IMG/VR virus record: IMGVR_UViG_3300010885_021743
Location: 1-30,586 of that record
Source of the DNA: a virus
Length of the DNA stretch: 30,586 bases
Direction: 5' to 3' (one strand)
Under the pieces are notes generated by a model. It ran no database searches, was not told the DNA's origin, and saw only the letters and a list, made by a program, of their open reading frames with translations. This document shows positions 3,441 through 21,884 of this stretch, in pieces. The stretch's first letter is position 1; each line of letters begins with the position of its first letter. The translations under genes were made by a program, and so were the position numbers.

Positions 3441-3449
3441 GGTTTGACC

Positions 3450-4248: not shown

Positions 4249-4259
4249 TGTGCCTGGAC

Positions 4260-4460: not shown

Positions 4461-4516
4461 TGTGGTTTTCCTCTATTGTAATGCCGAAAGTGAGTAGCTT
4501 GCTGCGGGCGTTGTAG

Positions 4517-4693
4517 TTACGAGGCGGGTGCGATGGTAAGTTGACCCTCTGCCACCAACACCATCATGTTGGCGTAATCCGGGCAGGCTGATTCAATTGG
4601 CACAAACGTCGTGATGCCGTTGATATCAACCCGGATTGCGTTTAACTCACCGTTGGAATTGTTGCAATATTGAGCGTTTGTATAAACCGGCAT
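4517..4693 (-). CDS. Small conserved phage protein (58 residues)
   Basis: A short gene of 58 codons plus TAA. The ATG at 4693 is preceded by GGAG 9 bases upstream and lies 3 bases after the stop of the long fibre gene. The protein starts MPVYTNAQY, has a short beta hairpin (AIRVDINGITTFVPIE) and ends with an EGQLTIAPAS strand. This matches a type of small protein, NG-x-I-x(n)-FVP followed by a G-x-LTIA end, that I recognise from the fibre regions of other phages. Its function is unknown. It may be a fibre-associated or chaperone-like factor. Confidence 0.75.
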   Translation of the reverse strand: MPVYTNAQYCNNSNGELNAIRVDINGITTFVPIESACPDYANMMVLVAEGQLTIAPAS

Positions 4694-4696
4694 TGT

Positions 4697-7069: not shown

Positions 7070-8713
7070 TCACCCCTGAGTGATTGTGATATTTGAAAGC
7101 GCTGTCGAGAAATAACCTTCCGGATCACCAGGGATGATGCCGCCGGTCGTCTGCGACATGGATCCGCTGTTGGCGTTATAGGCTAAGCCAGTCGAGTTGT
7201 AGGGGATCGTAAACGAATAAGGCGTGAGGACGGTCGGCGTCCACATGCCATTAATCAACGCCGTTCCGGTCGCACCAGAAATGGCGATCGTGATAGAGCC
7301 GGAAAGGCCATGCGGAAGAGGTGTGTAAATTGTCGTCGTGGTTCCGACACCAATGCTTGAGATCGTCAACGGTGCCGCCGAAATTCCATTAATGGAAACG
7401 GTAAAAATCATTCGCGTCAAAAGCCGTGTTGGAAGAACGCTTGCTGTTGCAATCTGGAATGCGTTTTGAAGTTCAAAAAGATTGATCGGAGATCCGACTG
7501 GAATGCTGTTGATATACGCCGCCAAGTCAATAGCACCCAAAGACGCCATTGTGGCGGCAGAAACCGTGTTTGTGGACGTCGTGTTCCACACCAAACCAAT
7601 GGTGACATATTGCACAACAGGAACAACAAACGGCACCAAATAGGTGTTCGGGTAATCCGTGATTGTGATGTATTGCGTGCGAGCATTGGATGCCAAAGCG
7701 CCACCGCCGCCATACGTAGGCGCAGACGTCGAGTTGTAAGGGATGCTGAACGTAGTCGTCGAAAGAACCGTGATTGTCCATGTGGCGTTGGCGCCGATCA
7801 TGCCAAGAACACCAGAGATCGTGACGCTGTTTCCGGTCGTCAGGCCATGCGGGAGCAGCGTCGTCACAACAGCCGCCGAGGCGTTGCTGATGCCGCTAAT
7901 CGTGCCAGTCTGAGATCCTGCCAAGGTAGATGTGTCAAAAATGGAAGAATAGATCGCATATGCAATCTGATACGGGTCTGCACTGCCGCCGACAATAATT
8001 TCCCAGGTCGAGCCGACTTGCACCACGGAAACCAACCGGATTTGAACACCAGAGACGTTTCCAAGCAGCGTTTTAAGATAACGCGCCATCCCCATCGAGG
8101 CAGCCAAACCAGCTTGCAAAACTTGCGACCGATAATTTTCAACGGTCTGCGCGCCGGAACTGGGCGTTCCGACAAGCGGATTAGTAACGGTCAGCGTGTA
8201 TCCCGAAGGAACAGACGTGGCGATCGTTGTGACGGTGTTAGCGGGTATCGCCCAGGATCCAGATTGAGTCGCCACGCAATAAAGAGACGGACTTGTGCCG
8301 CCCGTGCTGATGATCCCGCCATCCTGCACAATGTATTGGTATGTGCCGTCAGACACGTAGAACCCGATAGGAATGACGTATCCGGCAGTTCCAGTAAACA
8401 CCACGTAGACGCTGGCGTTCGTCGCCTGGCCCTGCTGCACACCGTAGATCTGACCGAGCTGATTGAGAATGAATTGATTGGCGCCATATGGCGTGATCGA
8501 ATTGACCAGTTCGACAAGGGCCGAATTGCACTGCATGATTGAGGCGACATCAGTGCTGCTGATGTCCTCAATCAGCGTCCCAGGCAGGTTTGCCGTATAG
8601 CCAGGATTGGTCGCGGCGACAGCAGTGAGCAAAGTCGTTTGAACGTCCGCAGGAACTGCCGGAACCATGCCAGCAGGCCCCAGGACGATCGGGATCGTTG
8701 TGCTGCCGCTCAT
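7070..8713 (-). CDS. Baseplate J-like wedge protein with two inserted beta modules
   Basis: 547 residues, ATG overlapping the upstream stop (ATGA). The N-terminus (PGTLIEDISSTDVASIMQ near residues 44-61, GANQFILNQLGQIYG near 77-91) is typical of baseplate J-like proteins, which form the wedge ring of contractile tails. The C-terminus shows the usual TRLLTRMIFTVS and PEGYFSTA motifs. The normal J fold is interrupted by two copies of a module of about 70 residues, at about 268-340 (LLPHGLTTGNSVTISG, then TFSIPYNSTS) and 450-520 (LPHGLSGSITIAISG, then SFTIPYNSTG). The same module occurs in the sheath, plug-like and decoration-like proteins of this window. It lies in the baseplate gene run between the gp25-like and DUF2612 proteins. 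Confidence 0.85.
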   Translation of the reverse strand: MSGSTTIPIVLGPAGMVPAVPADVQTTLLTAVAATNPGYTANLPGTLIEDISSTDVASIMQCNSALVELVNSITPYGANQFILNQLGQIYGVQQGQATNASVYVVFTGTAGYVIPIGFYVSDGTYQYIVQDGGIISTGGTSPSLYCVATQSGSWAIPANTVTTIATSVPSGYTLTVTNPLVGTPSSGAQTVENYRSQVLQAGLAASMGMARYLKTLLGNVSGVQIRLVSVVQVGSTWEIIVGGSADPYQIAYAIYSSIFDTSTLAGSQTGTISGISNASAAVVTTLLPHGLTTGNSVTISGVLGMIGANATWTITVLSTTTFSIPYNSTSAPTYGGGGALASNARTQYITITDYPNTYLVPFVVPVVQYVTIGLVWNTTSTNTVSAATMASLGAIDLAAYINSIPVGSPINLFELQNAFQIATASVLPTRLLTRMIFTVSINGISAAPLTISSIGVGTTTTIYTPLPHGLSGSITIAISGATGTALINGMWTPTVLTPYSFTIPYNSTGLAYNANSGSMSQTTGGIIPGDPEGYFSTALSNITITQG

Positions 8714-9045
8714 ACTGCGATACTCAATTGCACTGTCGCACCCTGATTAGTGACGATGTTGATTCTGTAGGTCGGCGTAAGCGAATTGACCTTTTGGATG
8801 GCCAACGACGCGAAGTATACGGAATAACGCTGTTGGATCAAAGCGACATAATAGTCGGGAAATATCTGCTGAACGACAGATTGCTGCGCGGGGATTCCCC
8901 AGTTGGCCCAAAACGGAGACTCGTTCAGGTTTAGCTTCAAGCACTGGATCAATGCCGTGACGTAAACATAGTCGTTGAACCCATTGAAGTCTGTTGTGAC
9001 TTCCATCCATTTGCCGGTTTGTGAGTCGCGGCCATAAACGCGCAT
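8710..9045 (-). CDS. Baseplate wedge protein, gp25/W-like
   Basis: 111 residues. The start ATG 9045 overlaps the TAA of the spike gene by one base (TAATG), and the stop overlaps the J-like start (ATGA). It starts MRVYGRDSQTGKW and contains a VTALIQCLKLNLNESPFW helix, followed by a C-terminal beta hairpin (YRINIVTNQGATVQLSI). Length, helix position and location between spike and J-like genes agree with gp25/W-type wedge proteins, which start sheath assembly at the baseplate. The family call relies on position more than on sequence. Confidence 0.7.
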   Translation of the reverse strand: MRVYGRDSQTGKWMEVTTDFNGFNDYVYVTALIQCLKLNLNESPFWANWGIPAQQSVVQQIFPDYYVALIQQRYSVYFASLAIQKVNSLTPTYRINIVTNQGATVQLSIAV

Positions 9046-9692
9046 TAGACCACCCCGCCAGTGTTGTTGCCGCCGGTCATAACACCGCTGTGGACGTGAG
9101 TTGCAAAGTCTTTTCCACCAATGGAAGCGCCATGCGTGTCAACGACAATGGAATTGGATCCATATGAAATTGTCACAGAGGAAGAGGTCAACGTGATTTT
9201 GCTGTTTGCTCCACAGGAAATCACAATTGAGGACGGAGTAAGCGTGATCTTGCTGTTGCCGCTGTCGTCTTTGAGCACCACCCCATTTGGCGCGGTGACG
9301 TTGTAGGCGTTGCCATCAACGGCAGGAAATTTGGTGTTGCTGAGAGGAACGAACACCAGCGTTGATAGGTTGCCCTCTTTGCGAAGATAGTCCGCAACGC
9401 CATTGCCAAGCCCAGTTACGCCGCCAAGATACAAGTCAGCAGCAACGACAAATCCTTTGTCGCCAATCTGCGTTGGTGGGCGAGCGTAACGCGATATAGC
9501 CTGCGGAACGGTAATTTGAGGAAAATTGATGGTGCTATTGATTTCAAATTTAACCGTCACCATTGCGTTTGAAACGGCTACAACGCTGACGGGCAAAGAT
9601 TTTGGATTTTGTTGTGTTGCTTGAATAATCTCATTTTGAATGAGTTGGATTATTGACCGTGAAAGAGGCGTCGTTTGGACGTTGTCAGCCAT
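9045..9692 (-). CDS. Baseplate central spike protein (gp138/gpV-like)
   Basis: 215 residues. Residues about 32-115 form an N-terminal OB-fold-like domain (SLPVSVVAVSNAMVTVKFE, then IGDKGFVVAADLYLGG) as in gp138-type spikes. It is followed by a short beta-helix built from repeated SKITLTPSSIVIS and SKITLTSSSVTIS strands (about 148-185). The last 23 residues have ATHVHSGV and end in NTGGVV. The paired histidines (199 and 201) match the metal-binding apex described for P2 gpV and phi92 gp138. The trimer would pierce the outer membrane on contraction. It sits directly after the hub gene. Confidence 0.82.
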   Translation of the reverse strand: MADNVQTTPLSRSIIQLIQNEIIQATQQNPKSLPVSVVAVSNAMVTVKFEINSTINFPQITVPQAISRYARPPTQIGDKGFVVAADLYLGGVTGLGNGVADYLRKEGNLSTLVFVPLSNTKFPAVDGNAYNVTAPNGVVLKDDSGNSKITLTPSSIVISCGANSKITLTSSSVTISYGSNSIVVDTHGASIGGKDFATHVHSGVMTGGNNTGGVV

Positions 9693-9704
9693 GACGGTTC
9701 TAAA

Positions 9705-10874
9705 TTACCCTAGGTTTGAAGACGTGGAAGTTGGAGGCAAGTATGTGCATTTAAAAAGAGAAACCCAAGAATCGGCAGTTGGCTGGCGGAAATTTCCATA
9801 ATGATTAATTTCATTAACATTAAAAGTCCCTTTTTGCTGGGACGTATTGCGATAATTATATGGAGCACTGACTTCTGAAGGAGCAATAGTTGGAAATACA
9901 CCTTCTGGAAATTTTATGGTGTCCAGGCAATGGATGTCTGCTCTCATAGGGCATTTAAATTGAACTTCACCTTGCGTAATCCACGTCGGTTGGCCGATCA
10001 AGTCTTTAAACTCAATGTCTATAGTTTTTGGTTTGTAAGACGGATTATCGGCGTTTTTTGCAGTGGAAGAAGCGGATGTTGTAGAGGTTGCAGCGTTCTG
10101 AGTAACAGCAGGCGGCGGAACCGTTCCGTCTGAAACAAAAAACGCATTGTTTTGCAGCAAAGCAATTTTTACGCCCAGGTATGGGCCTGGGCCTTTGTGA
10201 TAAATGCTAATAATTTTTTTAGAAAAATTATTAACCCATTCAGCAAACGCAGGAAGTGTGTCGTATACACTGTGCATTGAATAAGCCAAAATCAAATTTG
10301 GATTAATTTCAATCTGAGGTTCTGGATATTTGGGAAACGCATTTTTTAAAAATTCTTTAATCGCAACAGAAAGAGGAATGCCAGCAGGCCAGCTAAAACT
10401 GCCATTGATAGGTTGTTTCATGGAACCCAAAGGCGGGGGGAGAGGTTCCGAAACAATGGAAGATGATTGTGCCGTTGCCGGTTGCGTGGGCGCTGGAGTT
10501 GTCGGTGAAGAACCAGGCTTCAAAATAAGATCAAGCGTCATGTCGTTGCCAAGCCAATTGCCAAACGCTTGAGAGATGTAGCCATTCACAAGAACGCCGT
10601 TTTGCTCAGGATTGGCAAGCGGCAAACCTTTTTGAAAACCAGCAGATATTTTTATGTTTTTGTTGTTTAGATTACTGGCTTGGCTAATGGATTTTATAGA
10701 TATTCCTTGAATTTGAACAACCGCTGCGTTGGTTAAAAATTCATAAGTATTTGTAGTGATGTTGAATTGCACATTCAACGCGCCTGGGTCGTTTTTGCCA
10801 TTAACCCAACTGGTGTAAACTTGGGTTGGGCCTGGATTGGCGGGATCTGTAATTTCAATCCGGTAATACCTCAC
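9705..10874 (-). CDS. Baseplate hub protein
   Basis: 389 residues. The start is GTG 10874, overlapping the upstream stop (GTGA). The N-terminal 115 residues are beta-rich and begin MRYYRIEITD, a typical opening of hub proteins in phages with this baseplate type. Residues about 165-250 contain a mixed domain (SVAIKEFLKNAFPKY, then SVYDTLPAFAEWVNNF). The C-terminus contains DLIGQPTWI near 291. Two Pro/Thr/Ser/Ala-rich linkers, about 120-151 and 250-283, split the protein in an unusual way. The gene is visibly more AT-rich than its neighbours. It precedes the spike gene, as expected for the hub that holds the spike trimer. Family identity is inferred from order and the N-terminus. Confidence 0.72.
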   Translation of the reverse strand: MRYYRIEITDPANPGPTQVYTSWVNGKNDPGALNVQFNITTNTYEFLTNAAVVQIQGISIKSISQASNLNNKNIKISAGFQKGLPLANPEQNGVLVNGYISQAFGNWLGNDMTLDLILKPGSSPTTPAPTQPATAQSSSIVSEPLPPPLGSMKQPINGSFSWPAGIPLSVAIKEFLKNAFPKYPEPQIEINPNLILAYSMHSVYDTLPAFAEWVNNFSKKIISIYHKGPGPYLGVKIALLQNNAFFVSDGTVPPPAVTQNAATSTTSASSTAKNADNPSYKPKTIDIEFKDLIGQPTWITQGEVQFKCPMRADIHCLDTIKFPEGVFPTIAPSEVSAPYNYRNTSQQKGTFNVNEINHYGNFRQPTADSWVSLFKCTYLPPTSTSSNLG

Positions 10875-11440
10875 GGGCTTACCTCAAACTGTTGGTTTTC
10901 AACTCGGTAAATCAACGACGAGGTAAAATATCCAGCTGCCATGTTGATGTTGTATTGGACGGATCCCAGAGCAGCAATTGCCCCAGGAAACGACGCAACG
11001 CTGTAAGTGAATTGCGTTCTGTTGATAATGTTTGCAGCAAACAAGCCGTTGTATGTGGTGGGAGCGCAATTGATCATTGTCAGGTTAATGATGGAACCCA
11101 CTTCATACCCATGCGGGCCATTGGTTGTGGCTGTGACGGTGCCATAATTCCACGAAAGGTTTTGCAGGTTAACGCCAATCATGGATCCAATCAAAGGAAC
11201 CGAGAACACCAACACGCCGGAAAGCGTGTAGCAGTTCACGTAAAAGCGTTGCCCAAACAGGCCCCAAGTCACGGTGATGGTATATTGTGTGTTGTCCAAA
11301 GTCGGTTGAAACGTAAACGGACCAGCAGAAGATGGGACAGCAACTGGATTGAGACCGTAAGCAACAACCCGAGCAACAACAGAAGGAACCTGCGCGTTTG
11401 GCGCGCCGATCGGCGGTGTAAAATCGTATGTCGTGGTCAT
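10871..11440 (-). CDS. Baseplate plug-like protein (Pam3 gp18-like) with inserted module
   Basis: 189 residues, ATG overlapping the upstream stop (ATGA). The central strand pair around residues 53-86 (YTITVTWGLFGQRFYVNCY, then GVLVFSVPLIGS) matches the domain known from the cyanophage Pam3 baseplate plug gp18 and its relatives. At about 97-160 that domain is interrupted by one copy of the recurrent module (NGPHGYEVGSIINLTM, then PTTYNG). The C-terminus returns to the plug-like fold (TSSLIYRVENQQFEV). It probably plugs or caps the tail tube inside the baseplate. It lies between the hub-peripheral protein and the hub. Confidence 0.7.
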   Translation of the reverse strand: MTTTYDFTPPIGAPNAQVPSVVARVVAYGLNPVAVPSSAGPFTFQPTLDNTQYTITVTWGLFGQRFYVNCYTLSGVLVFSVPLIGSMIGVNLQNLSWNYGTVTATTNGPHGYEVGSIINLTMINCAPTTYNGLFAANIINRTQFTYSVASFPGAIAALGSVQYNINMAAGYFTSSLIYRVENQQFEVSP

Positions 11441-12114
11441 GTCGGATTACCCGGCACGGGAGTAGCTAGTCCGCTGCCCGTGTGGCTCATGAATGTGTTT
11501 TGAGCTGCCTGGGCTTGCTCAAGCGTCACCAGCGGCTGGATGAAATCCCATTGCCAGGCATTTTGAGGTATCGGGCTGCCCTGGCTGACGTCCGTCAGGC
11601 CTGTCAAAATGCAGTTGGTGTAGAATTTCACAGGGGTGGCTATGGTGAACGTGCCGCCCTTGTTTACGTGTGCCTGAATTGATGATTGCAGAGCCATCAT
11701 TGTGATGAGTTTGGCCGTGTGCCCTCCAGGCTTGTTGACCGGGATGATCATCCGCAGAGAGATCGTCAACGGTTCAGAGATGATCGCGTTGGCGGCAACG
11801 GACTGGTTGGCAAACGGATACATGCCGACTGCGTAGTTGGCCAGCTTGCCGCCTTGCACAGGCGTGAAATGAGCAAAAAAATCGTCCAAAGATTTGGTGT
11901 TTAGCGCATTAATGGCAGTGGTGACGATCGCGCCTGCAGCAGCAAGGGCGGTTCCAGAAGCACCAAAATCGTAGCCAGTTTCCGTAATTGCAATGACAGG
12001 CAAAATCCCAAACGGGGCCATGTCGGCAATGCCACCTGTGAAAAGAATGGGCGAAATCTGAAAGCCGAGTTCGTAGATAACCCGACCGATGTTATTGAGA
12101 AGAGAACCGCTCAT
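11437..12114 (-). CDS. Baseplate or distal tail protein, unknown family
   Basis: 225 residues with ATG 12114, seven bases past the stop codon of the tape measure gene, and a stop that overlaps the next start (ATGA). Motifs include ELGFQISPILFTGGIA near residues 15-30 and SEPLTISLRMIIP near 113-125, which I recall from baseplate proteins located directly after tape measure genes. A C-terminal segment contains LTDVSQGSPIPQNAWQWDF. The position suggests a Dit-like or hub-surrounding component that links the tail tube to the hub. No catalytic motif is visible. Function is inferred from gene order. Confidence 0.65.
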   Translation of the reverse strand: MSGSLLNNIGRVIYELGFQISPILFTGGIADMAPFGILPVIAITETGYDFGASGTALAAAGAIVTTAINALNTKSLDDFFAHFTPVQGGKLANYAVGMYPFANQSVAANAIISEPLTISLRMIIPVNKPGGHTAKLITMMALQSSIQAHVNKGGTFTIATPVKFYTNCILTGLTDVSQGSPIPQNAWQWDFIQPLVTLEQAQAAQNTFMSHTGSGLATPVPGNPT

Positions 12115-12118
12115 TGCA

Positions 12119-14167
12119 TCATGCCGCCAACGAGGAAATGACCGCGTTCACTTGCCCACCTGTTGCGTTGTAGAGGGAAATCTTAACGCCTTGGCCAGGT
12201 TGCGCGGTAAAAGAATTAACTCCAAGACCAGACCTGTTCAAGTTGTTTAGATATTTTTCTGTTTCAGGAGGAAGGTGTTCTCTCCAATTGTCTCCATATT
12301 GGTTAATTGCTTTTTGGACATTTCCTTGCCCCCAATTGTAACCCGCAGCCGCCTTGTTGACATCTCCTTTAAACATGACGAGCAGGTCTTGAAAATATCG
12401 TGCCGCTGCTTCGGATGATTTGGCAAGATCCCACACAGATTTTTCGTCCAGGCCGTAATCTTTTGCTGTGCCTGGCATAAACTGAAACGGACCCATAGCA
12501 CCAGCGGAAGAGACAGGATGTCTGGGATCCCACTCTTGCTTGTGGATTTGCGCCAGCAAACCAGCCGGAAGATCATATTGTTTTTCCAGCGCGCTAAACG
12601 CACCGGGGCGTTTGGCTTCCAGATATTGTTCTCCGTAGGCAAAATGCTTGCCGGTCGAAGAATTGTTGTTGGCTGCGCCTTGCATTGGAGGTGGGACATA
12701 ACCGTTCGGAGAAGCGTAATTGGCGCCTGCAGGGCCACCTGCTGATCCAGCAAGACCTTTATTGATTCCGGTTTTGAATTTTTCCCAAAAGCTATCAGCA
12801 TTCCAGATGCTGTAGAGAAGCCCAGGAATTGTTCCGTATTTGTAAGCTGTTCCGATTGCGTTTTGCGTTTGTTCGGCTGCTTTGTCTTGTTCTGCTTTAA
12901 CAGCCTGTTGGCGACGCTTAAGGTCGTTCCACTGTTCTTGAGTGCCTTGCCAATAAATTGGAGCTTTCCCATAAGGATTCTGCGGCGTTAGAGTTTCTTC
13001 TCCTTTTTTCCCGCCCCCAGCCAGCCAATCAAGAAGGCTTACGAATTTCGAAGTGAGAGTTGTGACTGTGTTTATGAATTTGTCTACGGACTCTTTGAAC
13101 TCTGGTTTTTCCATGTTCCTGGCGAGGTTTTCAAGCCAGGCGGCAAATGTTTCCAGCCCGTCTCTGAATCCCTTTGATTCAAAAACTTTTACCAACAAAT
13201 CGGCAAAAGCGGTTGTGATGTGCCCAAGAGGTTTGGCCAAACCTTGCAAAGCAACTACAAATTTGTTTGTAATTTCTCCTGTTGCCGTTTCCAAGGATTG
13301 GATAAAATCTTCCCATTTGCTGATGGTATCTTTTCCAAGGGCCAGCTTTTCTAGCGTTCCCGGCAAGGCTCTGTTTGCTGTTTCAATTTCAGCAGATGAA
13401 TGGCCTGCCAATTCTCGAAGATTGGGAATGCCGCCAACCAATTCAGCCCAACCGTATCCTTCAGCTTGTGCCGTGAAGGCGCCAGTCCCTTGCTTAAGGG
13501 CCTGTTGAGATCTTGCGTGCAACGCCTCGATAACTTGCGGCATAAGTTGCGCCGAAGTTTTTCCTTCAATGTCTTCTTGAGAAATACCAAGATTCCGAAG
13601 CCGCCATTGTTTGCCGTAATCGACTTGGGCTTGAGATATGTTTCCCAATAGCGCAGACGACCCACTAAACCTCCGGTATACGGTTTGAACGGCTTGAAGC
13701 TCGTTTGGATTAAGACCAAGCGCACCAGCTTGTTGGCGCGTTTGACTGGCGCCACGAGCCATTGCATCCAACCCAAAGAAACCTGTCGCTCCAGAAAGCA
13801 AGCCAAACGTCGTCGTCAAAGCGCCTGTGATCGCGCCCCATTTTAGCATTGAGAACGTAATGCCTTGAATGTTCTTCAGGGCTTTGCCGCTGTTGCTGCC
13901 AATGCTGACCATATTCCGATCAGTCTTTTTCATCTCCTCGCTGATTTTGATTTGAGTAATTAATTGTTTATTAAGAATATTAGTTTGCGCTTCAATTGCA
14001 TGAAGCAGCGAGTCTGCTTTGTCCGTTGTTTCAACAATGGAATCTGTTGTTAGTTGCCAAACTTCTGGTAGTTTATCCAAATCTTTTTTGTGTTTGTCAA
14101 ACAGGTTTTTAAATGCCTTAAAAGCGGCATCGTTTATCTCAATGTCGATGATGGATTTAACGGCCAC
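12119..14167 (-). CDS. Tail tape measure protein with lytic transglycosylase domain
   Basis: 682 residues. The start is GTG 14167, immediately after the TAG of the frameshift reading frame of the tail chaperone, with AGGG about 9 bases upstream. The first 480 residues are mostly helical and include a hydrophobic segment near residues 113-135 (WGAITGALTTTFGLLSGATG), as in tape measure proteins that set tail length and enter the cell envelope. Residues about 525-645 form a soluble lytic transglycosylase domain: QIHKQEWDP with the likely catalytic Glu 545, SSAGAMGPFQFMPGTA, and a YNWGQGNVQKAI repeat end. It would cut peptidoglycan during DNA entry. At 682 residues the protein is short for a tape measure, implying a short tail of this class. 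The gene appears AT-richer than the sheath and tube genes. Confidence 0.88.
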   Translation of the reverse strand: MAVKSIIDIEINDAAFKAFKNLFDKHKKDLDKLPEVWQLTTDSIVETTDKADSLLHAIEAQTNILNKQLITQIKISEEMKKTDRNMVSIGSNSGKALKNIQGITFSMLKWGAITGALTTTFGLLSGATGFFGLDAMARGASQTRQQAGALGLNPNELQAVQTVYRRFSGSSALLGNISQAQVDYGKQWRLRNLGISQEDIEGKTSAQLMPQVIEALHARSQQALKQGTGAFTAQAEGYGWAELVGGIPNLRELAGHSSAEIETANRALPGTLEKLALGKDTISKWEDFIQSLETATGEITNKFVVALQGLAKPLGHITTAFADLLVKVFESKGFRDGLETFAAWLENLARNMEKPEFKESVDKFINTVTTLTSKFVSLLDWLAGGGKKGEETLTPQNPYGKAPIYWQGTQEQWNDLKRRQQAVKAEQDKAAEQTQNAIGTAYKYGTIPGLLYSIWNADSFWEKFKTGINKGLAGSAGGPAGANYASPNGYVPPPMQGAANNNSSTGKHFAYGEQYLEAKRPGAFSALEKQYDLPAGLLAQIHKQEWDPRHPVSSAGAMGPFQFMPGTAKDYGLDEKSVWDLAKSSEAAARYFQDLLVMFKGDVNKAAAGYNWGQGNVQKAINQYGDNWREHLPPETEKYLNNLNRSGLGVNSFTAQPGQGVKISLYNATGGQVNAVISSLAA

Positions 14168-14473
14168 CTAAATCATCCCTGCTCGTTTGAGTGTTCCAAG
14201 AAGATAGCGTTGTCGATACTCATGCGCCGTCTCCCATTTCCACTCGGGGACTTGCTCATTAAAATACTCGGCAAATCCCTCATTAGCAATCCAATCTAAG
14301 CAGGAACTGACGATGTGTTCGCCGTAAGCGCAGAAGTTTCTGTCTCGGTCAATATCGGCAAGGAAGCGGCGTACGCCGTAGAGTTCAAGGACGTTGTTTG
14401 CGATCCCCACAAACGCATTCTTTCGAGAACCGACGCCACTTCCGTCCTGCGACTCATGGCCGAGGCGCAGATA
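14168..14473 (-). CDS. Tail assembly chaperone, -1 frameshift extension (T part)
   Basis: This frame has no good start of its own (only GTG 14410). It is open from just before a T_TTT_TTT heptamer to TAG at 14168-14170, and is in the -1 frame relative to the upstream chaperone gene. Slippage there would add 101 residues to the first 132, giving a fused protein of 233 residues. The extension contains NNVLELYGVRRFLADIDRDR and ends QRYLLGTLKRAGMI. The arrangement copies the G/GT system of lambda and P2-like tails, where a small share of fused product recruits tube protein to the tape measure. It ends directly before the tape measure start. Confidence 0.75.
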   Translation of the reverse strand, partial: YLRLGHESQDGSGVGSRKNAFVGIANNVLELYGVRRFLADIDRDRNFCAYGEHIVSSCLDWIANEGFAEYFNEQVPEWKWETAHEYRQRYLLGTLKRAGMI

Positions 14474-14868
14474 AAAAAACAGATCAGGCCCTCAACCTCC
14501 GCGATATCGTCGCCATCCAGAAGCTTCTTGTCAATCGCGTCTTGAAAAGGAACCGTCACCCACCCCGTCTCGGACGGCATAACGACATTGGATAGGCGCC
14601 GAATCTCGGACATCAAACCCATCTCAACACCGGAACGCCCTTCCCAGACGCCCTGGTCTACGGCAATCTTCTTCAACAGCATTGCCGCAACTCGTGGGCC
14701 GGAAATGAAACTCAGACCCTCCGAGATAATCGCCGCAAACGTCTTGCTGATGATCAGGAAGTATTTTTCAAACACCTCACGAGAAATCGGAGTGCTGTGG
14801 ACGTAGATAGTGGTCTTGTCCTCAGTCTCAATTTCAGTGATGAGGTTCAACTTGTTATCAAGACGCAT
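14296..14868 (-). CDS. Tail assembly chaperone (G part)
   Basis: 190 residues, ATG 14868 with only a weak purine-rich motif upstream. It is a mostly helical protein: VFEKYFLIISKTFAAIISEG near residues 32-51, GPRVAAMLLKKIAVDQGVWE near 57-76, and LICFFICASAM at 128-138. The C-terminal part after residue 132 is Thr/Ser/Ala-rich and lacks clear structure, as expected for a tail that only the unshifted product carries. Located between the tail tube and the tape measure, the standard position of the tail assembly chaperone. A perfect slippery heptamer lies at codons 130-132. Confidence 0.75.
   Translation of the reverse strand: MRLDNKLNLITEIETEDKTTIYVHSTPISREVFEKYFLIISKTFAAIISEGLSFISGPRVAAMLLKKIAVDQGVWEGRSGVEMGLMSEIRRLSNVVMPSETGWVTVPFQDAIDKKLLDGDDIAEVEGLICFFICASAMSRRTEVASVLERMRLWGSQTTSLNSTAYAASLPILTETETSALTANTSSVPA
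14473..14479 (-). promoter_or_regulatory. Programmed -1 ribosomal frameshift site (T_TTT_TTT)
   Basis: On the minus strand the codons read TGT TTT TTT ATC in the chaperone frame, a perfect T TTT TTT slippery heptamer followed by A. Both tRNAs can re-pair fully after a one-base backward slip. The -1 frame has a TGA eight codons before the end of the heptamer and is then open for 101 codons. This fits the short window in which slippage can work. No downstream pseudoknot was identified by eye. Confidence 0.75.
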
Positions 14869-14894
14869 TTGCTGCTTTCGTCCGATAGGGGTTG

Positions 14895-14924
14895 CGCCTG
14901 GACACCTCTCTCAATGCCCAGGCG
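14895..14924 (-). other. Inverted repeat after the tail tube gene
   Basis: Arms CGCCTGG (14895-14901) and CCAGGCG (14918-14924) form a 7-bp stem with a 16-base loop, beginning 10 bases after the tube stop codon. There is no T-run behind it on the minus strand, so it is not a classical terminator. It could stabilise or attenuate the message between the abundant tube and the rarer chaperone. Low certainty. Confidence 0.3.
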
Positions 14925-14933
14925 GAAGACAGG

Positions 14934-15380
14934 TTAGAGCAGGCTCCAGAGCGAGTTGTTGATCTGGTAATAGCCCTTCACAGTCACAACAAAACCAGCG
15001 TCTTCGCCTGCAAAGTTCAATTCACGGACGTTGTCGATGGCGCAGTTGTTCATGGTATAGGACGGCAAGCTTGACGTATCAGGCGTCACCGTCACATCAC
15101 CTATCACGCTCAAGGTCTGGCGCTGGATTTCCCACTGGGGAGCCAGTGCCTGAGTCTTAAGCAGGGCAATGGTGATCGTCACCATTTGGTAGGGAAGCGG
15201 GGACTGAACCGTCCCCGTCATCGTCGGAATGGCGTTGGTGGTCTCGCCTTCAAACGCCATTGTGATGCCAGGACGCCCCAGATAGGGCGCCGTGACGTTA
15301 AGGTTGGGAAAAGACGGGATCACTACGCTGCCACGAAGGCGGTTGAGTGTCCCCTGGACGACTTGCGGATTGCCAGCCAT
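14934..15380 (-). CDS. Tail tube protein (DUF3277-like)
   Basis: 148 residues with a strong TAGGAG ribosome-binding site 10 bases before ATG 15380. The protein is beta-rich, starts MAGNPQVVQGTLNRLRGSV, and contains FEGETTNAIPTMTG near residues 43-56 and YQMVTITIALLKTQ near 64-77, patterns of tail tube monomers that stack in hexameric rings inside the sheath. It sits immediately after the sheath gene and before the tail chaperones, the usual order. Length is normal for the family. Confidence 0.8.
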   Translation of the reverse strand: MAGNPQVVQGTLNRLRGSVVIPSFPNLNVTAPYLGRPGITMAFEGETTNAIPTMTGTVQSPLPYQMVTITIALLKTQALAPQWEIQRQTLSVIGDVTVTPDTSSLPSYTMNNCAIDNVRELNFAGEDAGFVVTVKGYYQINNSLWSLL

Positions 15381-15395
15381 TTGCGTGGGCTCCTA

Positions 15396-17000
15396 TTAAC
15401 CAGCCGCCGGGAACGACGTGACGTTGACGTAAAAGACAATCTGCGTAAACCCGCGCTGCGGCGTGTAGCTGACCGCAAGACCACGGTAAATTCCCGCCGG
15501 GTAGTCAGTCGGGTTCTGCGACACGTAAGTTGCAAACGGAACCGCCGTCACCGTCACAGGCCCAAGCGCCAGACCGAAAGCAATGGCGTTGTTCATCACC
15601 GTCTGCTCAACCGCCCGAAGCCGGTTGATGCCGTTCTGGTCGTAATAGAGTGGGTTCTGTGGGTTGTTTGAACCGTTGATCACGGCGTTTGCAAGCATCT
15701 CGTCCGAGACGATCTGCACCCAATCTACCGAATACCAATAGGTCAAATCGTGACCGTCTTCCGTGGTTCCCCACAGGATGATGGTGTTGCTGATCCCACC
15801 TTCAGCGCCAGTCCCAATGGTGTTGGTAAACGCATTCTTCAACGTAGTCAGAAGAGCGTTGTTGCCGCGAACCGGGAATGGGGTGACGCCGTAGCAATAG
15901 CTGAAAGCGAACGGAGTGACGAGGTTTGCCGCAGACGGGTTGTATCCAAGCAGTGTGTAGAACGCCGCAGCAATGCTGAACTCCGACGCGGCGACGACAC
16001 CCGTGTTTGCGTAGAGACTGGCCAAAACAGTGCCAAAAACAGTCGCAGTGCCGGGGTTGGCGGAAACCGCATAGACCAACGACGTGCCGGTAGTGCCAGG
16101 CAACGCAAGCCAAGTGCCGTTATACGCGATCGGAGTGCATCCCGTGATCGTAAACCAGTTACCCGGCACAACGCCGTGAGCAGCAGATGTAACTGCAGTC
16201 ACATAAGTCGTTGTGGCCGAATAAGTAAGCGTCGAGATCGTGCTGGATGTGTAAGTCCCGAAATTGGGCGATTCGATCAACGTAAACGCGCACTTCATCA
16301 ACGCGGTGTAGTTGACGTAATTGGTCAAAGTTGTCGTGATGAAGAAGTAAGTCTTGGAAGTGTTGGACTGGAAGCTTTGCAGCAGCGTCATGAAGCTGGC
16401 AACGCTGTCCCAGGTTCGCGGGACGACGTAAGCGTAGAAATAACCAGCAGCGCCAGGCGTGTAGTTGCTGTTGGGATTGGCAGCGATATAAGACGTCAGA
16501 GTGGCAACACCCTGATCGACGCTGCCGATGCCCAATTCCAGCACGTAGCACGACACGCTTGACCCTTGGGCAAAAAACGTGGTGACCATTGCTTGCAGCT
16601 CAACTGCGCTGTTAGGCAAATACGTCCCGCCTGTGCCAGCCGAAATTGATGTGCCAATCAGCGTGAACGTGAACGCTGTAGTGGTGGTCGGCGTGCAAAG
16701 CCACGTTCCGTTGTAAGACGATACTGACACGCCGGAAACCGCAAGGTAGATTGCGGTTCCGACAGTCAAACCGTGCGCGACGGTAGTGGTAATGGTGGCG
16801 ACGTTGGCAACCCAAGACGCCGAAGTAAGGGCTTTGGACGTAACCAAAATCGACGTAAGGGCAGAGGCTTGAGTGAGAAGCGTAGCAGTTCCCACGCTGG
16901 TGGTCGTCGCACCCTGAGAAATGAGTGCGCCGGATTGCTGCAGAGTGGCGGGCGTCGGCCCGACAGTCTGAGAGACGTTGACTGTGACAATACTCGGCAT
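15396..17000 (-). CDS. Tail sheath protein (DUF3383-like) with two inserted modules
   Basis: 534 residues; ATG 17000 with GGAG 6 bases upstream. The N-terminus (IVTVNVSQTVG) and the C-terminus (YRGLAVSYTPQRGFTQIVF) are characteristic of DUF3383-type contractile sheath proteins, as is the long central alpha/beta part (VLELGIGSVDQGVATLTSYI near 154-173). Two copies of the recurrent beta module are inserted, at about 57-127 (TTVAHGLTVGTAIYLAVSG, then SSYNGTW) and 256-328 (AAHGVVPGNWFTITG, then IAYNGTW). They probably project from the sheath surface. The sheath contracts to drive the tube through the envelope. The tube gene follows after 15 bases. Confidence 0.87.
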   Translation of the reverse strand: MPSIVTVNVSQTVGPTPATLQQSGALISQGATTTSVGTATLLTQASALTSILVTSKALTSASWVANVATITTTVAHGLTVGTAIYLAVSGVSVSSYNGTWLCTPTTTTAFTFTLIGTSISAGTGGTYLPNSAVELQAMVTTFFAQGSSVSCYVLELGIGSVDQGVATLTSYIAANPNSNYTPGAAGYFYAYVVPRTWDSVASFMTLLQSFQSNTSKTYFFITTTLTNYVNYTALMKCAFTLIESPNFGTYTSSTISTLTYSATTTYVTAVTSAAHGVVPGNWFTITGCTPIAYNGTWLALPGTTGTSLVYAVSANPGTATVFGTVLASLYANTGVVAASEFSIAAAFYTLLGYNPSAANLVTPFAFSYCYGVTPFPVRGNNALLTTLKNAFTNTIGTGAEGGISNTIILWGTTEDGHDLTYWYSVDWVQIVSDEMLANAVINGSNNPQNPLYYDQNGINRLRAVEQTVMNNAIAFGLALGPVTVTAVPFATYVSQNPTDYPAGIYRGLAVSYTPQRGFTQIVFYVNVTSFPAAG

Positions 17001-17035
17001 GGATGGCTCCGGCGATTGGGTGCGACGACTTCAGA

Positions 17036-17398
17036 TCAGCGGTAGGCGACCGACACCACCTGAGAAGCGCCAGGGGCGACGACGATACCAGCAGTGACCG
17101 GCCAGTCGAAAGCGTAAGTGCCGACAACCGCAGGAATCACAGCAATCAAAGTGGCGGCGCCCGTGCCGCTGGTGGTGGCAAAATCATACACCGCACCAGC
17201 AGAACCGGCGACATTGACGTTGATGCGCCCAAGATAACCAGCGCCGGTCCTTACGACGGTGGCTGCGGTAATGTTCAGCACAGCGACTTCCGAACCACCG
17301 TTGTCGGCAACAAGCAAGAAGCCGTTGGCGTCAACAATGAGCGGCTTTGCAACGCCACTGGCTACGGCGGGATAGACTTGGTTGGGGGCTTGAGGCAT
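17036..17398 (-). CDS. Small beta-rich virion protein before the sheath
   Basis: 120 residues with a strong AAGGAG ribosome-binding site before ATG 17398. It is composed almost wholly of small and beta-branched residues with no cysteine or charged clusters: AKPLIVDANGFLLVA near 17-31, GYLGRINVNVAG near 54-65 and a YAFDWPVTAGIVVAPGAS end. The strong start suggests high expression. It is likely a structural protein, perhaps a decoration or tail-terminator-associated subunit; no family recognised. Confidence 0.65.
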   Translation of the reverse strand: MPQAPNQVYPAVASGVAKPLIVDANGFLLVADNGGSEVAVLNITAATVVRTGAGYLGRINVNVAGSAGAVYDFATTSGTGAATLIAVIPAVVGTYAFDWPVTAGIVVAPGASQVVSVAYR

Positions 17399-17413
17399 GA
17401 CAAAACTCCTTGA

Positions 17414-18370
17414 TTAAGCGGCAACAGGATAAGGGGCGACATTGTATTGAACAAAGACATGTTCAATCATTTGCCGCGCAACGTCATTGATGCGCGCTTG
17501 GTAATAGCTCACATCATACTCGATAGTCTTCTTCATTGCGATGGATTGTATCTCTGATTGGGTCCGCTTGTCATCGCGCATCATCGGCATGTTCATAATG
17601 CCAATAACATCGGTAAGCAGGCTGTATTGGTTGACCGTATCGACAAAATCCAACGCCGCGCTGTTGTTTACACCGTAAAGCGTAATCCGAACATGATCAG
17701 TGGCCAATTGATAATGAGTGGCGTTGATTGTCAACAACGGAGCTGCCTGGATTGCCGCCGTCTGGGCTGGCTCAATGTGAACAACGCCATATGGCGGCAC
17801 GATGTTGCTCGGCACCAAAAACGACGGATACAACATGATTGCCGGGTTTGGGATTGTCAGCCACGCAGGAGAATACGTCTGAAGCGCCAACCACGCCGGT
17901 AGGCTGTTGGAGACAATCAAATTGGCGGGCGAAAGGTCATACAGGTTCGTAACTAGCTGAGACGCCAGAGCCGGGTAAACAGCGTCCCCCGCATAGTGAT
18001 ACAGGCCCGCCTGCTGATAGAACATTCCACGCTGAGAGAAAGCAAACCGGATGTCGTCAACGGTCGCCACCCACATGACCTGGCCGTTGACCTGGTTCAG
18101 TTTTTCTACGGGTTGCGTTGTGGTAAAAATGACACGGTTGATGCCGATTGTCTCATCCTCACGTTGCTCACGCACCGAAGCGTAATGCAAAGAGCCCTGA
18201 ACAACGATCGTCTCACCGGCCAGCCAAAACACGTAACCATCAAGCGGCAGAATCCGTTTTACGTATTTTGTAAAGACGACAGACGCGCTCTCCGAGATCA
18301 TCGTCAAGCCATCGGCCAACGTAGACCGAAGCTGAGAACCGTTCCCGACGCTTTCGTTGACTGTCGCCAT
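17414..18370 (-). CDS. Conserved virion structural protein, probable neck/tail component
   Basis: 318 residues; ATG 18370 shares its A with the upstream stop codon (TGATG). The motifs LPLDGYVFWLAGE (42-54), GSLHYASVREQREDE (59-73) and RFAFSQRGMFYQQAGLYHY (108-126) are, as I recall, highly conserved in structural proteins of phages with DUF2184 capsids, though no role is established to my knowledge. The C-terminus is helical (VSYYQARINDVARQMIEHVF). The position between connector candidates and the sheath suggests a neck or tail-terminator function. No catalytic motif is visible. Confidence 0.7.
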   Translation of the reverse strand: MATVNESVGNGSQLRSTLADGLTMISESASVVFTKYVKRILPLDGYVFWLAGETIVVQGSLHYASVREQREDETIGINRVIFTTTQPVEKLNQVNGQVMWVATVDDIRFAFSQRGMFYQQAGLYHYAGDAVYPALASQLVTNLYDLSPANLIVSNSLPAWLALQTYSPAWLTIPNPAIMLYPSFLVPSNIVPPYGVVHIEPAQTAAIQAAPLLTINATHYQLATDHVRITLYGVNNSAALDFVDTVNQYSLLTDVIGIMNMPMMRDDKRTQSEIQSIAMKKTIEYDVSYYQARINDVARQMIEHVFVQYNVAPYPVAA

Positions 18371-18903
18371 CAGTCAATCCACGCTTTGAAATTAGCCTGG
18401 TATAGCCCGGTGTCGATGAACGAAGGCCGTGGTTCGCGTTTGGCATACGGGTGTTTCATCCGATGATTGACGCCCATCAAAGCAGCTTGCGTCGGCACGC
18501 CGCGAGCAACGCCATCAAGAAATTGCAAAGAAAGAAAATGCTTAAACGCAGTTTCAATTTCGTTCATGGCTTCGCTTACAGGCCCTTGTTTGGACGGGCT
18601 CAAAGGCTCGTCAACCACAGGCGCACCCATAAGCACATTTTGAATTGAGCCATTAACGGAATGCTCTAAAGCCTTGGCAATTAGATCAACGCCGACCTCT
18701 TCAAAAAATAACTCCATAACGTGATATTTGTCTTCAAGCATTTCGGCCACGTCAAATGTCGTCTTTTCCATAGGCGTAGCGATAGCTGGCGCTTCTATAT
18801 TGCCAGCTTTTGCTTTTCCGTATTTGTAAGCTTTATTTTTAGCTTTTCCATAAGATTCGGAATTATTGTATGGTTGCTCAATAACGCCCAGATGCAAGAT
18901 CAT
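18370..18903 (-). CDS. Probable neck/tail-completion protein
   Basis: The frame is open from 18960, but ATG 18903 forms an ATGA overlap with the preceding gene and is the likely start, giving 177 residues. An unusual basic, tyrosine-rich stretch with two YGKAK units lies near residues 18-33. The C-terminus HPYAKREPRPSFIDTGLY (near 150-167) matches the ending of phage virion morphogenesis or tail-completion proteins as I remember them. Probably a connector that closes the head-tail junction. Function is inferred from the C-terminal motif and position. Confidence 0.65.
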   Translation of the reverse strand: MILHLGVIEQPYNNSESYGKAKNKAYKYGKAKAGNIEAPAIATPMEKTTFDVAEMLEDKYHVMELFFEEVGVDLIAKALEHSVNGSIQNVLMGAPVVDEPLSPSKQGPVSEAMNEIETAFKHFLSLQFLDGVARGVPTQAALMGVNHRMKHPYAKREPRPSFIDTGLYQANFKAWID

Positions 18904-19367
18904 GCCACACCCCACATCGTCCCGTAGGTCTGCGCCATCGCAAGATAAGCACGCCCCCAAGGCGTTTTGAGGTTTTGCAAATTGGACAGCGTCAAATTCT
19001 TTAGCGAATCGGGAACCGCAAGGCTATCGCTGGTTCCTTGATCGGACGCGGACTGAACAACGCCAGCGGCAAAATTGTTGATCTTCAACGACGCCCGAAG
19101 ATCGGCAAAATACGTGCGGCCAGGCTGGTCCTGGGCGTAATTGATCAGGTTGTCGGCAGCTAGGTTGTAAACCGCCTCGACGTAAAGGTTCGTCTCTGGC
19201 GTTGCGGAAAAAGAAGATCCAACGATGGCGAGTGCTGGATTGACCAGCATCGTCGCCACCGAAAACGACCAACTAATCACAGGGCTATCTGTCGGCAGCA
19301 CCAACGGGCTGATGCCCATGATGTTGTAGATAAACGAACTAAACCCTGTGAGAGTCGGTTGCATCAT
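18900..19367 (-). CDS. Head-tail connector candidate, unknown family
   Basis: 155 residues. Two adjacent ATG codons (19367 and 19364) compete. The AGGA motif is 4 bases from the first and 7 from the second, so the second may be used. The protein contains ATPETNLYVEAVYNLAADNL near 55-74, DQPGRTYFADLRAS near 79-92, and a C-terminal TPWGRAYLAMAQTYG. This suggests a largely helical adaptor. It overlaps both neighbours by four bases (or abuts). Its place two genes after the capsid gene fits the head-completion or connector slot. Confidence 0.6.
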   Translation of the reverse strand: MMQPTLTGFSSFIYNIMGISPLVLPTDSPVISWSFSVATMLVNPALAIVGSSFSATPETNLYVEAVYNLAADNLINYAQDQPGRTYFADLRASLKINNFAAGVVQSASDQGTSDSLAVPDSLKNLTLSNLQNLKTPWGRAYLAMAQTYGTMWGVA

Positions 19368-19882
19368 CCCTTCCTGGGTCGCCCACGACCACGCTTTGCG
19401 CCAGTGTCAGTGCCATCCCGAACAACCTCAACACGCTCGTTCAATCCAGGCTCCGTCGAACCATTCTGCTCGACAACCTCAAGTTCCAGCGACTCCAGCT
19501 TGGCGCCTCCTTCAGTCACGCGCTCAATGGCAGCATGCAAAGCAGCCGCAGACATCTTACGAGCTTCCTGGCTCGTTTCCTGCAGCACACCAGCATTATG
19601 TTCATCAGCATACATAATCTTTTCAACCTTGATCGGCTTGTCGAAACAATAGCACAGACCCACAAACGGCTTGCTGCGATCAATGTCAGCAACGTCCACC
19701 AACCCATAGGCCTTGTGCTGATCAACAATCATGCTCAACACATTCTGCGGTGCATTCGGCTGGTAGATCACAATCTGGCTGCCAGGCTGAATCTGCTGGC
19801 GCCGGACATTGTTCTCTTCCGGAATGCGATAGATAAAATCATGCTTCTGCTTGCTGGCATTGGCAATGTAGAGAGTGGGCAT
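19364..19882 (-). CDS. Capsid-linked protein with C-terminal AT-hook-like motif
   Basis: 172 residues; ATG 19882 has an AGAGGA site 7 bases upstream. The N-terminal 95 residues form a compact alpha/beta part (MPTLYIANASKQKHDFIYRI, PGSQIVIYQPN, DRSKPFVGLCYCFDKPI). A helix (ARKMSAAALHAAIERV, about 107-122) and a Glu-rich linker follow. The last 11 residues are KRGRGRPRKG-like, containing the GRP core flanked by arginines that defines an AT-hook. AT-hooks bind the minor groove of AT-rich DNA; whether this one does is inference. The gene follows the major capsid gene and a hairpin. The motif could contact packaged DNA from the head interior or neck. Confidence 0.65.
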   Translation of the reverse strand: MPTLYIANASKQKHDFIYRIPEENNVRRQQIQPGSQIVIYQPNAPQNVLSMIVDQHKAYGLVDVADIDRSKPFVGLCYCFDKPIKVEKIMYADEHNAGVLQETSQEARKMSAAALHAAIERVTEGGAKLESLELEVVEQNGSTEPGLNERVEVVRDGTDTGAKRGRGRPRKG

Positions 19883-19903
19883 CTTGGTTTCCTCTTAAGT
19901 GAA

Positions 19904-19937
19904 GATCAGCCAGTAGGTTGCTGCCTACTGACTGATC
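19904..19937 (-). terminator. Strong hairpin after the major capsid gene
   Basis: Arms GATCAGCCAGTAGG (19904-19917) and CCTACTGACTGATC (19924-19937) enclose a 6-base loop. In the minus-strand RNA all 14 pairs form, one being a U-G wobble; in the plus-strand RNA there would be one mismatch. It starts 9 bases after the capsid stop. No T-run follows, so it is more likely an mRNA-stabilising or attenuating hairpin than a full Rho-independent terminator. Confidence 0.6.
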
Positions 19938-19946
19938 CCGGTTTCA

Positions 19947-20969
19947 TCACTGATACTGCATGCTCAGGATGGTGATGGCTTCAGGGCGAATGCCCCAGCC
20001 GGAAGTCACGCGCATCTCAGACAGAACGTCAATCGCGCCACCCGGAAGCGGAGTCGGGATTTCACGCGGCGCCGCCATGTCGCAGAACTGCATGGTGCAG
20101 GCCGACAGACCCGGCGAAAGTTCAGCAAAGACGTTGGTGTTGACGCGGCCACCCATCGGCTTGTGAACCTCAGGCATGACCACCAGAATGGCGTCCGTGC
20201 CGCCAGCGCCCTTGCCGATCAAGGTGTCGTCGTAGCACCAGAGGATCTCATCCTCGTTCATCTCGCCAACAGCCTTCACAACACCGGCAGTCGAGAGCGT
20301 GCCAGCACCCTGGCGCTGGAACTGCGTCACCTGCACGATGTCCTGATACTCCCAGGCGCCGAGAACACGCTGCGGACCAAGGACCACGATGCGGTGGCCC
20401 ATGCCAAGCTGCATGGTGCGGGTCTTCATGGCAGACACCTGCGAGAGCAGGAAGAACGCCATCTGGCCGTTGTCGTAAGTGACGACGGTCGTGTTGCCGT
20501 TGCTGTCAGCCGGAAGATTGGCAGCAGTCGCGCCGCTGGTGTTCAGCAGGCCTTCGCCATTCGAACCGTTGAAACCATACAGCAGCGCCGAACGCATCAG
20601 CTGGAAGTGACCCTGGCGCATACCAAGGCGCTGCGCTTCGACAATCGACACGCCCCACTGCGACATCGCCGCGGTGTCGTGATGATCATACTCGGCGCGA
20701 ACGCGCTGAAGGTAAGTCGGGGTCGAAATCTGCCGCGCCGTTACCGTGACGCTCGGCAGAGCATTGTAGGCCGCTTGACCAGCCGCCATCGTGGTGCGGA
20801 TGTCGAACGCATCAATGTAGACATACAGGTCGCCTTCGCCGAGACGAACCTGCGGGTTGGCACCCGCAAGAGCGTCAAACGCGCCGGAAGCCTGGCTATA
20901 CTGAAGCAGCTTTTCCGGCACCATATAGTGCGGAGAAACCATTACGCGGGCTGGAGTGATATTCGCCAT
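19947..20969 (-). CDS. Major capsid protein (DUF2184-like)
   Basis: 340 residues with an AAGGAG ribosome-binding site 9 bases before ATG 20969, the strongest initiation region in the head module. Motifs fit DUF2184-type HK97-fold capsid proteins: YVYIDAFDIRTTMAAGQ near 48-64, QRVRAEYDHHDTAAMSQWG near 87-105, EAQRLGMRQGHFQLMRSALL near 110-129, and a C-terminal RVTSGWGIRPEAI. The DEILWCYDDTLIG segment near 240-252 is also typical. It would form the icosahedral shell, with proteolysis likely by the DUF2213 protein. A hairpin follows the gene. Confidence 0.85.
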   Translation of the reverse strand: MANITPARVMVSPHYMVPEKLLQYSQASGAFDALAGANPQVRLGEGDLYVYIDAFDIRTTMAAGQAAYNALPSVTVTARQISTPTYLQRVRAEYDHHDTAAMSQWGVSIVEAQRLGMRQGHFQLMRSALLYGFNGSNGEGLLNTSGATAANLPADSNGNTTVVTYDNGQMAFFLLSQVSAMKTRTMQLGMGHRIVVLGPQRVLGAWEYQDIVQVTQFQRQGAGTLSTAGVVKAVGEMNEDEILWCYDDTLIGKGAGGTDAILVVMPEVHKPMGGRVNTNVFAELSPGLSACTMQFCDMAAPREIPTPLPGGAIDVLSEMRVTSGWGIRPEAITILSMQYQ

Positions 20970-20981
20970 TGGTGCGGCTCC

Positions 20982-21884
20982 TTAGATCTGGATCAGAGCG
21001 GCGGAACCGCTGTTATTCCACGTTGCGACGTTGTTGACCGGATCCCAGACAACGACCTTCGAGTTGCCCGACTGCACACGAAGCACTTGCACCGGAAGAG
21101 CCGCTTCGCTGTAGACAAGCGTAATGGTTCCGCCAAGAGTTCCCCACATGGCCGAAGTCCCCGGCAGCAAGAACGTGAAGTTCTGGCTGTTGGTGAACGT
21201 GTTGACCTGGTGAACGGTGTTGATTGCGGTCGTGCCGCCGTTGCCGGTGTTGGTCGCGCCAGCCAGAGTGAAGTTGTCGCCAACTGCAGCGACCGGAGTG
21301 GCAGCAGCCATCACGACAGCAACCTGACCGCCGTTGGTGGCGGACCACGTCAGCGAAGTTACGCTGTAAGAAGCCGAAGCGGTCGGCGCGAGGCACTGGG
21401 CGTTGAAGTCCCAATACACGGCCTGGTTGATAGCGCCACCAGCAAGCGAGGCCGCAAGCGACGGATCGCAAGCCACCGCAATACGGGCTTCGCTGCCAAG
21501 CAGGTAATACGGCACCATCATGCCGCCAGCCGCGGTCGGAACCGGCGACTGCGGCCAGCTAATCCAGTTGCTGGCCTGATTGAACACCGAAAAGCCGATA
21601 AGCTTGCCCGAAGCATTGGCCGAGATCGTTGTGCCGCGACCGACAACGGAGCCAAGTTCGCTGCCGTAGGAGGTGTTGGCATACGCAGTCGGAACGTTGG
21701 CATACACACCAACGCCGCCCCACATCGGGTAAACTTCAGCAGTGGAAAGAATGCCACCAAAAAGCAGGTTGCGAATGGCGGGATCGTCCATGGCAACGCC
21801 CTGAACGAGACCGTGAGAGGCGGTGCTGAACCCACCAATGTTGGTGGTCGTAAGATTCGGATTGAAAGAAACTGAATTGGCCAT
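20982..21884 (-). CDS. Candidate capsid decoration/cement protein with inserted module
   Basis: 300 residues; ATG 21884. The N-terminus (LTTTNIGGFSTASHGLVQG near 11-29) and the segments AIRNLLFGGILST and YPMWGGVGVY resemble structural cement or decoration proteins that lie between the DUF2213 and DUF2184 genes of related phages. At about 174-257 there is a divergent copy of the recurrent beta module (VAAVGDNFTLAG, then a FTFLLP strand), in which the usual HGL is replaced. The C-terminus (VQVLRVQSGNSKVVVWDPV) completes a beta barrel-like part. Likely exposed on or bound to the capsid. The role is inferred from gene order. Confidence 0.65.
   Translation of the reverse strand: MANSVSFNPNLTTTNIGGFSTASHGLVQGVAMDDPAIRNLLFGGILSTAEVYPMWGGVGVYANVPTAYANTSYGSELGSVVGRGTTISANASGKLIGFSVFNQASNWISWPQSPVPTAAGGMMVPYYLLGSEARIAVACDPSLAASLAGGAINQAVYWDFNAQCLAPTASASYSVTSLTWSATNGGQVAVVMAAATPVAAVGDNFTLAGATNTGNGGTTAINTVHQVNTFTNSQNFTFLLPGTSAMWGTLGGTITLVYSEAALPVQVLRVQSGNSKVVVWDPVNNVATWNNSGSAALIQI

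Follow-up and report, generated by a model that had tools for sequence, protein, structure and literature searches.

A single beta-barrel module of 70-90 residues occurs six times in four unrelated virion proteins encoded by the virus record IMGVR_UViG_3300010885_021743 of IMG/VR, whose 30,586 nucleotides make up the whole stretch of DNA analysed here (hereafter, the window). The carriers are a J-like baseplate wedge protein (copies J1 and J2), the tail sheath (S1 and S2), a plug-like protein (P1) and a capsid decoration protein (D1), all of them encoded on the same strand (Table 1). This six-fold occurrence is real and well supported, as laid out in the following paragraphs.

One barrel module in four virion proteins

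Translation of the window located the six copies at the places where the initial annotation had put them, and their coordinates were rechecked by retranslation. A profile made from 128 copies of relatives, to which neither the window nor its near-twin contig contributed, recovered every one of them (E-values in Table 1) and gave no further match below E 1 among the remaining window proteins, while the reversed proteins of 99 related loci gave 0 matches with the module profiles mod0 and mod2. Pairwise BLAST among the copies linked part of the set (J1/J2, 7e-10; S1/plug, 1e-4; S1/S2, 6e-4), being too weak with single copies and missing D1. Profiles restricted to one carrier reached the others: sheath copies alone matched the plug (2e-21) and J1 (1e-5), decoration copies alone matched S2 of the sheath (3e-21) and, in a profile versus profile comparison, the sheath/plug/decoration type matched the J type at 2e-10. 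The pairwise identity between some copies is low (21-45%), as would also be seen if Thr/Ser/Gly-rich beta proteins were alike by chance. Such a compositional artefact, however, keeps a negligible probability and is already refuted by the lack of matches in reversed sequences, by window-free E-values down to 2e-24, by the precise gaps where the module is absent and by the agreement of the predicted folds. In this regard, D1 had been described as a divergent copy devoid of the HGL motif, and it is indeed the same module by profile, position and predicted fold.

The host proteins, also proposed to be unrelated, were identified as sheath, J, plug and decoration proteins by PHROG, Pfam and fold. 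The sheath model superposes on the solved sheaths of Sf14, XM1 and Pam3 (Z 24-27), and the core of the decoration protein does so on the decoration proteins of the FCWL1 (Z 13.9) and T1 (Z 13.8) capsids, so that the predicted model supports a role first put forward for this protein as a candidate. Sequence searches of the PDB found no match for the window sheath and one unrelated chain only (E about 1) for the window plug, and tblastn with the plug matched no phage record. The Pfam matches of the carriers contained no E1 enzyme domain, which sets these proteins apart from ubiquitin-activating enzymes.

The module had been proposed to be a beta-sandwich. It is instead a self-contained beta-barrel of the E1-FCCH/endosialidase-barrel type, as revealed by the Pfam match of J1, by profile matches in the PDB and by the sheath and decoration models. 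Among the window copies, J1 passed the cut-off of PF16190 (E1_FCCH), and J2 together with the plug, sheath and decoration copies stayed below it. The family was matched by 22 of the 35 J relatives (E limit 0.01), and the sheath and decoration copies of the phage group go unrecognised by Pfam. In the PDB, a multi-site module profile reached E1 enzymes at 2e-7 and phage endosialidases weakly; the profile of sheath, plug and decoration copies without the J types did not reach E1 enzymes in the PDB by sequence. Structure prediction, suggested at the outset for each carrier, shows a shared barrel in the AlphaFold models of the sheath and the decoration protein; for the J and plug modules, the same fold is the one expected from their sequences. 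In the sheath model each module has six strands, and low-confidence linkers at residues 247-249 and 329-335 flank S2. A structure search with this model returned sheaths first and then E1 enzymes (E1 chains at E 0.004). In the decoration model (pLDDT 80) the strand order of the module is the same as in the sheath modules. Its residues 170-261 superpose on the FCCH domain of Uba6 with Z 10.4 and a root-mean-square deviation (rmsd) of 2.0 over 77 aligned residues (Z 9.3-10.4 and rmsd 2.0-2.4 over the Uba6/Uba1 comparisons), and on residues 425-506 of EndoNF with Z 8.8 and rmsd 2.2 over 78 aligned residues (Z 8.8-9.2 over the endosialidase barrels of EndoNF, 3ju4, and phi92, 4hiz). Residues 168-262 of the same model (window 21099-21383) also superpose on residues 14-97 of the T1 tail-tube chain 9l0f_G (Z 8.6) and on the FCWL1 head-to-tail interface chain 9jlf_E (Z 9.2), two proteins that may either carry the module or merely have a similar barrel.

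Table 1. Carrier proteins, module copies and a module-free neck-region gene in the window. pLDDT, predicted local distance difference test.
Feature	Position in window	Strand	Size or residues	Evidence and remarks
J-like baseplate wedge protein	7070..8713	-	547 aa; two modules	Pfam Baseplate_J 6e-8; phrog_6 baseplate wedge 2e-20
Module J2	7136..7372	-	residues 448-526	lineage-specific copy of J1 type; profile 5e-7
Module J1	7685..7912	-	residues 268-343	canonical FCCH type; PF16190 42.1 bits vs cut-off 29.5; profile 4e-16
Plug-like protein, Pam3 gp18-like	10871..11440	-	189 aa; one module	phrog_8737 1e-15; Pam3_gp18 0.003, below cut-off
Module P1	10943..11179	-	residues 88-166	profile 2e-24
Tail sheath	15396..17000	-	534 aa; two modules	phrog_205 3e-22; model pLDDT 87
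Module S2	16002..16253	-	residues 250-333	profile 3e-19
Module S1	16605..16832	-	residues 57-132	profile 6e-19; strands E56-64 to E126-129 in model
Neck-region protein, phrog_6356 family	18900..19367	-		module-free in window; fifth carrier family in relatives L024, L034, L162
Capsid decoration protein	20982..21884	-	300 aa; one divergent module	phrog_6268 (211 aa) aligns end to end around insert
Module D1	21105..21377	-	residues 170-260	divergent, without HGL; profile 6e-5

Insertion sites and exchange between virion genes

Discrete insertion relative to module-free homologues was a check set beforehand, and when the window proteins were aligned with those of six cultured or temperate phages and of close environmental relatives, such homologues, aligning with a gap, were found for every module site. 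Each copy is thus a discrete insertion of 70-90 residues. The J protein of two relatives (L009 and L018), 75% identical to that of the window, has neither J copy; the decoration protein of another (L013), 63% identical, lacks its module; and so do plug homologues of 87-92 residues. S1 is missing from the sheath of phage QDWS and S2 from those of RothD, PdC23, Rac-SA53 and QDWS. Moreover, the solved Pam3 sheath (382 residues, 330 of them aligned) matches the core of the window sheath without modules. At the site of D1, a canonical AHGL...AYNG copy is found in RothD, vB_YenM_30.14, PdC23 and several metagenomic relatives, which makes the divergent D1 homologous by position. This set of homologues with and without the module, some of them only 25-37% diverged, constitutes natural material to learn about the role of the domain for the phage. 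As a separate observation, the sheath of the Shewanella phage QDWS (L008, 15239-16561, minus strand) bears a different insert with GSGYTSAPTV-type repeats, at a position other than that of S1, and the sheath seems to take more than one kind of module.

The relationships among 134 copies, all from this phage group, were analysed in an unrooted tree built on 80 columns. Site labels change 16 times along this tree, compared with 72 changes for shuffled labels, indicating that copies were mostly inherited in place. Several clades nest nonetheless within the modules of another gene: P1 among the sheath S1 modules (support 99/88), S2 in the decoration D1 modules (98/97) and the second J copy of the L043 type (J1b) inside sheath S1 (100/99). 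Within the J proteins, J2 and a further site, J0, nest in the J1 clade (97/83). Trees in which the J copies, or the sheath copies, were constrained to a single clade were rejected in approximately unbiased (AU) tests (p 0.002 and p 0.00015, respectively), and in the L043 genome the J and sheath modules are 66% identical to each other. Altogether, nested clades, rejected one-clade trees and discrete insertions support the initial proposal that the module moves between genes as a unit, and these sequence comparisons support several gene-to-gene copyings, namely from sheath to plug, from decoration to sheath and from sheath to J. For the copyings from sheath to plug and from decoration to sheath, this direction is the most parsimonious interpretation of the unrooted tree and could change with more sequences. 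On a related note, the S2 modules of L012, L013 and L015 are only about 40% identical to that of the window, with sheath cores that are 72% identical, and those of L012 and L013 cluster with decoration-type copies (L015 is outside the tree), which suggests that one module was replaced by another in these sheaths.

Two other histories would account for part of these data. Each site could have received its module independently from outside, that is, from tail fibres or other proteins of unrelated phages, where the modules are abundant (cyanophage fibres, minor and major tail proteins, head closure). We regard this scenario as unlikely, given that P1 falls within the group's own sheath modules, S2 within its own decoration modules and the J1b copy of L043 within its own sheath clade, all with the high supports given above in a tree of this group's modules only. 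Far less probable still is an ancestral presence of the module in all four proteins, with the module-free relatives as losses. S1 and J1 are widespread and some losses look real, such as those in the J of L009/L018, but solved sheaths such as that of Pam3 match the core without modules, and the J2, J0, P1 and neck copies occur in few lineages only.

Occurrence in the phage group and beyond

Full-length family profiles cross-match through the modules, and core profiles without module columns were built instead. A profile search of the 99 related loci uncovered 226 copies, distributed over 187 proteins and five virion families, all of them in the four carrier families except for two neck-region proteins (phrog_6356) of L024 and L034; a third neck-region protein with the module occurs in L162. 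The J protein has extra sites: L011 bears J0, and both L022 and the L043 group have a second copy in tandem. J2 was seen, among the loci examined, only in the window and its near-twin (L014/L088). Most of the clade has retained S1 and J1, whereas only a few lineages possess J2, J0, P1 or the neck copy. In all these loci, which are centred on structural genes, the module was found in virion proteins only.

A scan of viral contigs with single-sequence queries, the second of which was a consensus-like sequence made for search use only, gave at least 395 confirmed module places and shows the module to be abundant beyond the phage group. Among the matches listed, the carriers in unrelated phages are minor and major tail proteins, head closure and other structural proteins, and cyanophage fibres carry the module too. 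The initial statement that similar modules are known singly in phage proteins needs correction, as unrelated phages, too, have such modules in several of their virion proteins. The virion-wide spread extends outside this phage group in an unrelated phage-like contig (L179), with the module in connector-like, head closure and major tail proteins (2096-2932, 2575-3504, 4328-5293). In another contig (L143), two neighbouring minor tail proteins (1513-3834 and 3862-5856) contain six and three tandem modules.

Elsewhere in the window (1330-2259 and 3850-4248), one protein has two Gp77-type fibre adaptor domains and a further protein resembles a third copy. The protein encoded between the Nudix and decoration genes (21891-23618) shows repeated long Asp runs with Lys/Arg/His-rich spacers.

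Possible role of the module and relation to known systems

The module is a self-folding domain that can be inserted into, and lost from, loops of assembly proteins with retention of the protein family. The explanation we favour is that of a mobile barrel, copied among virion genes and probably kept as weak accessory binding patches. The barrel of 70-90 residues enters loops of virion proteins as a whole, is inherited per site in most lineages and is cleanly gained and lost. Within this phage group it has been copied several times between virion genes, as would be expected of ordinary legitimate or illegitimate recombination between short similar segments. Insertions would be tolerated because the barrel folds alone on short linkers, leaving the host fold intact and letting the barrel stand off it. 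Barrels on the outer capsid, sheath and baseplate may then be kept as weak multivalent patches binding the host surface or extracellular polymers. In this line, the common surface or glycan-binding function suggested by the initial annotation is plausible by analogy with the barrel of EndoNF, the closest structure from a phage and a binder of polysialic acid, and an accessory binding patch would be the best-supported role. The polysialic acid site of EndoNF includes S460, S468 and G504 (PMC12632334), which lie inside the range 425-506 matched by the decoration module. Moreover, divergence is faster in the sheath and plug modules than in the proteins that carry them, a behaviour common in exposed domains, and we take this, together with the clean absences in close relatives, for a sign of an accessory role.

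Several points weigh against binding patches copied among genes. The positions common to all copies (T, HG, G, NG and G) are also present in E1 enzymes and, consequently, mark the fold and not a ligand; the Pam3 gp18-like plug may lie within the hub, a poor fit to a surface role; each site evolves on its own, and no exposed patch common to the sites is apparent; and the tree rests on its 80 columns with many forks open. Neutral accretion is a serious rival to an accessory binding role. A foldable barrel could drift in and out of loops by recombination as neutral or mildly useful padding, with no ligand and no common function and, where kept, it could fill gaps or brace neighbouring subunits. 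This reading, which we hold as a tentative one, is consistent with a presence that varies even among close relatives (J1 is absent in L009/L018 and present in others), with conserved residues that, by comparison with E1 alignments, are structural only, with a plug that need not be exposed and with modules diverging faster than cores. It is harder to reconcile with the persistence of S1 and J1 over most of the clade, with the restriction of the module to virion proteins in the loci examined, even if these were centred on structural genes, and with the glycan bound by one structural relative, EndoNF. More doubtful, albeit conceivable, is a pool of interchangeable barrels recopied among head, neck, sheath and baseplate genes, through which the whole particle would show one kind of weak multivalent binder and which would evolve by copying from gene to gene.

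Both E1-FCCH-like and endosialidase-barrel families were already known in Pfam. The FCCH domain of E1 enzymes (PF16190; Uba1 and Uba6) shares with the module the barrel fold and a signature of HG-x(3)-G, NG and a closing TFsI strand, but the phage copies are insertions in virion proteins with no E1 enzyme around. The endosialidase barrel (PF12195, End_beta_barrel; EndoNF and phi92) has the same fold and also belongs to a phage surface protein, whereas the window modules come without the catalytic propeller and their sequence scores are below the cut-off: no window protein matched PF12195, and the best score, that of the J module of L034 (1e-5), was 25.4 bits versus a cut-off of 35. Glycan binding is known only for EndoNF (PMC12632334), to which the window modules are likened by fold. 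The decoration homologues of PdC23 and vB_YenM_06.16-1 carry the label 'endosialidase', misleadingly, and the nature of the module explains this kind of label ('ubiquitin-activating E1 FCCH', 'endosialidase') on phage structural proteins.

The immunoglobulin-like (Ig-like) domains of phages are non-essential in the known cases. The module resembles them in being a small beta domain that turns up at scattered places in capsid, tail and baseplate proteins, has a patchy distribution among relatives and is present in several unrelated virion proteins. The fold is different, however, since the window module positively matches the FCCH/endosialidase barrel and not the Ig fold; moreover, the window modules lie inside genes, with copying that is traceable in one group and no programmed frameshift seen. 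Ig-like domains of tailed phages were described in 2006 by Fraser et al. as patchy over particles (cited in PMC10385173). In the wider context of phage protein mosaicism, Smug et al. (2023) reported that domains are still being shuffled, particularly in receptor-binding and baseplate proteins (PMC10684548), with no mention of sheath or FCCH, whereas the shuffling unit described here spans head, neck, sheath and baseplate. In the part of the literature covered, we found no account of an FCCH-type barrel as a wandering virion domain. The module is a second promiscuous virion domain, analogous to the phage Ig-like domains and largely missed by Pfam, which adds a non-Ig member to the short list of domains wandering over phage particles, with a traffic between genes that can be traced with support values in one group.

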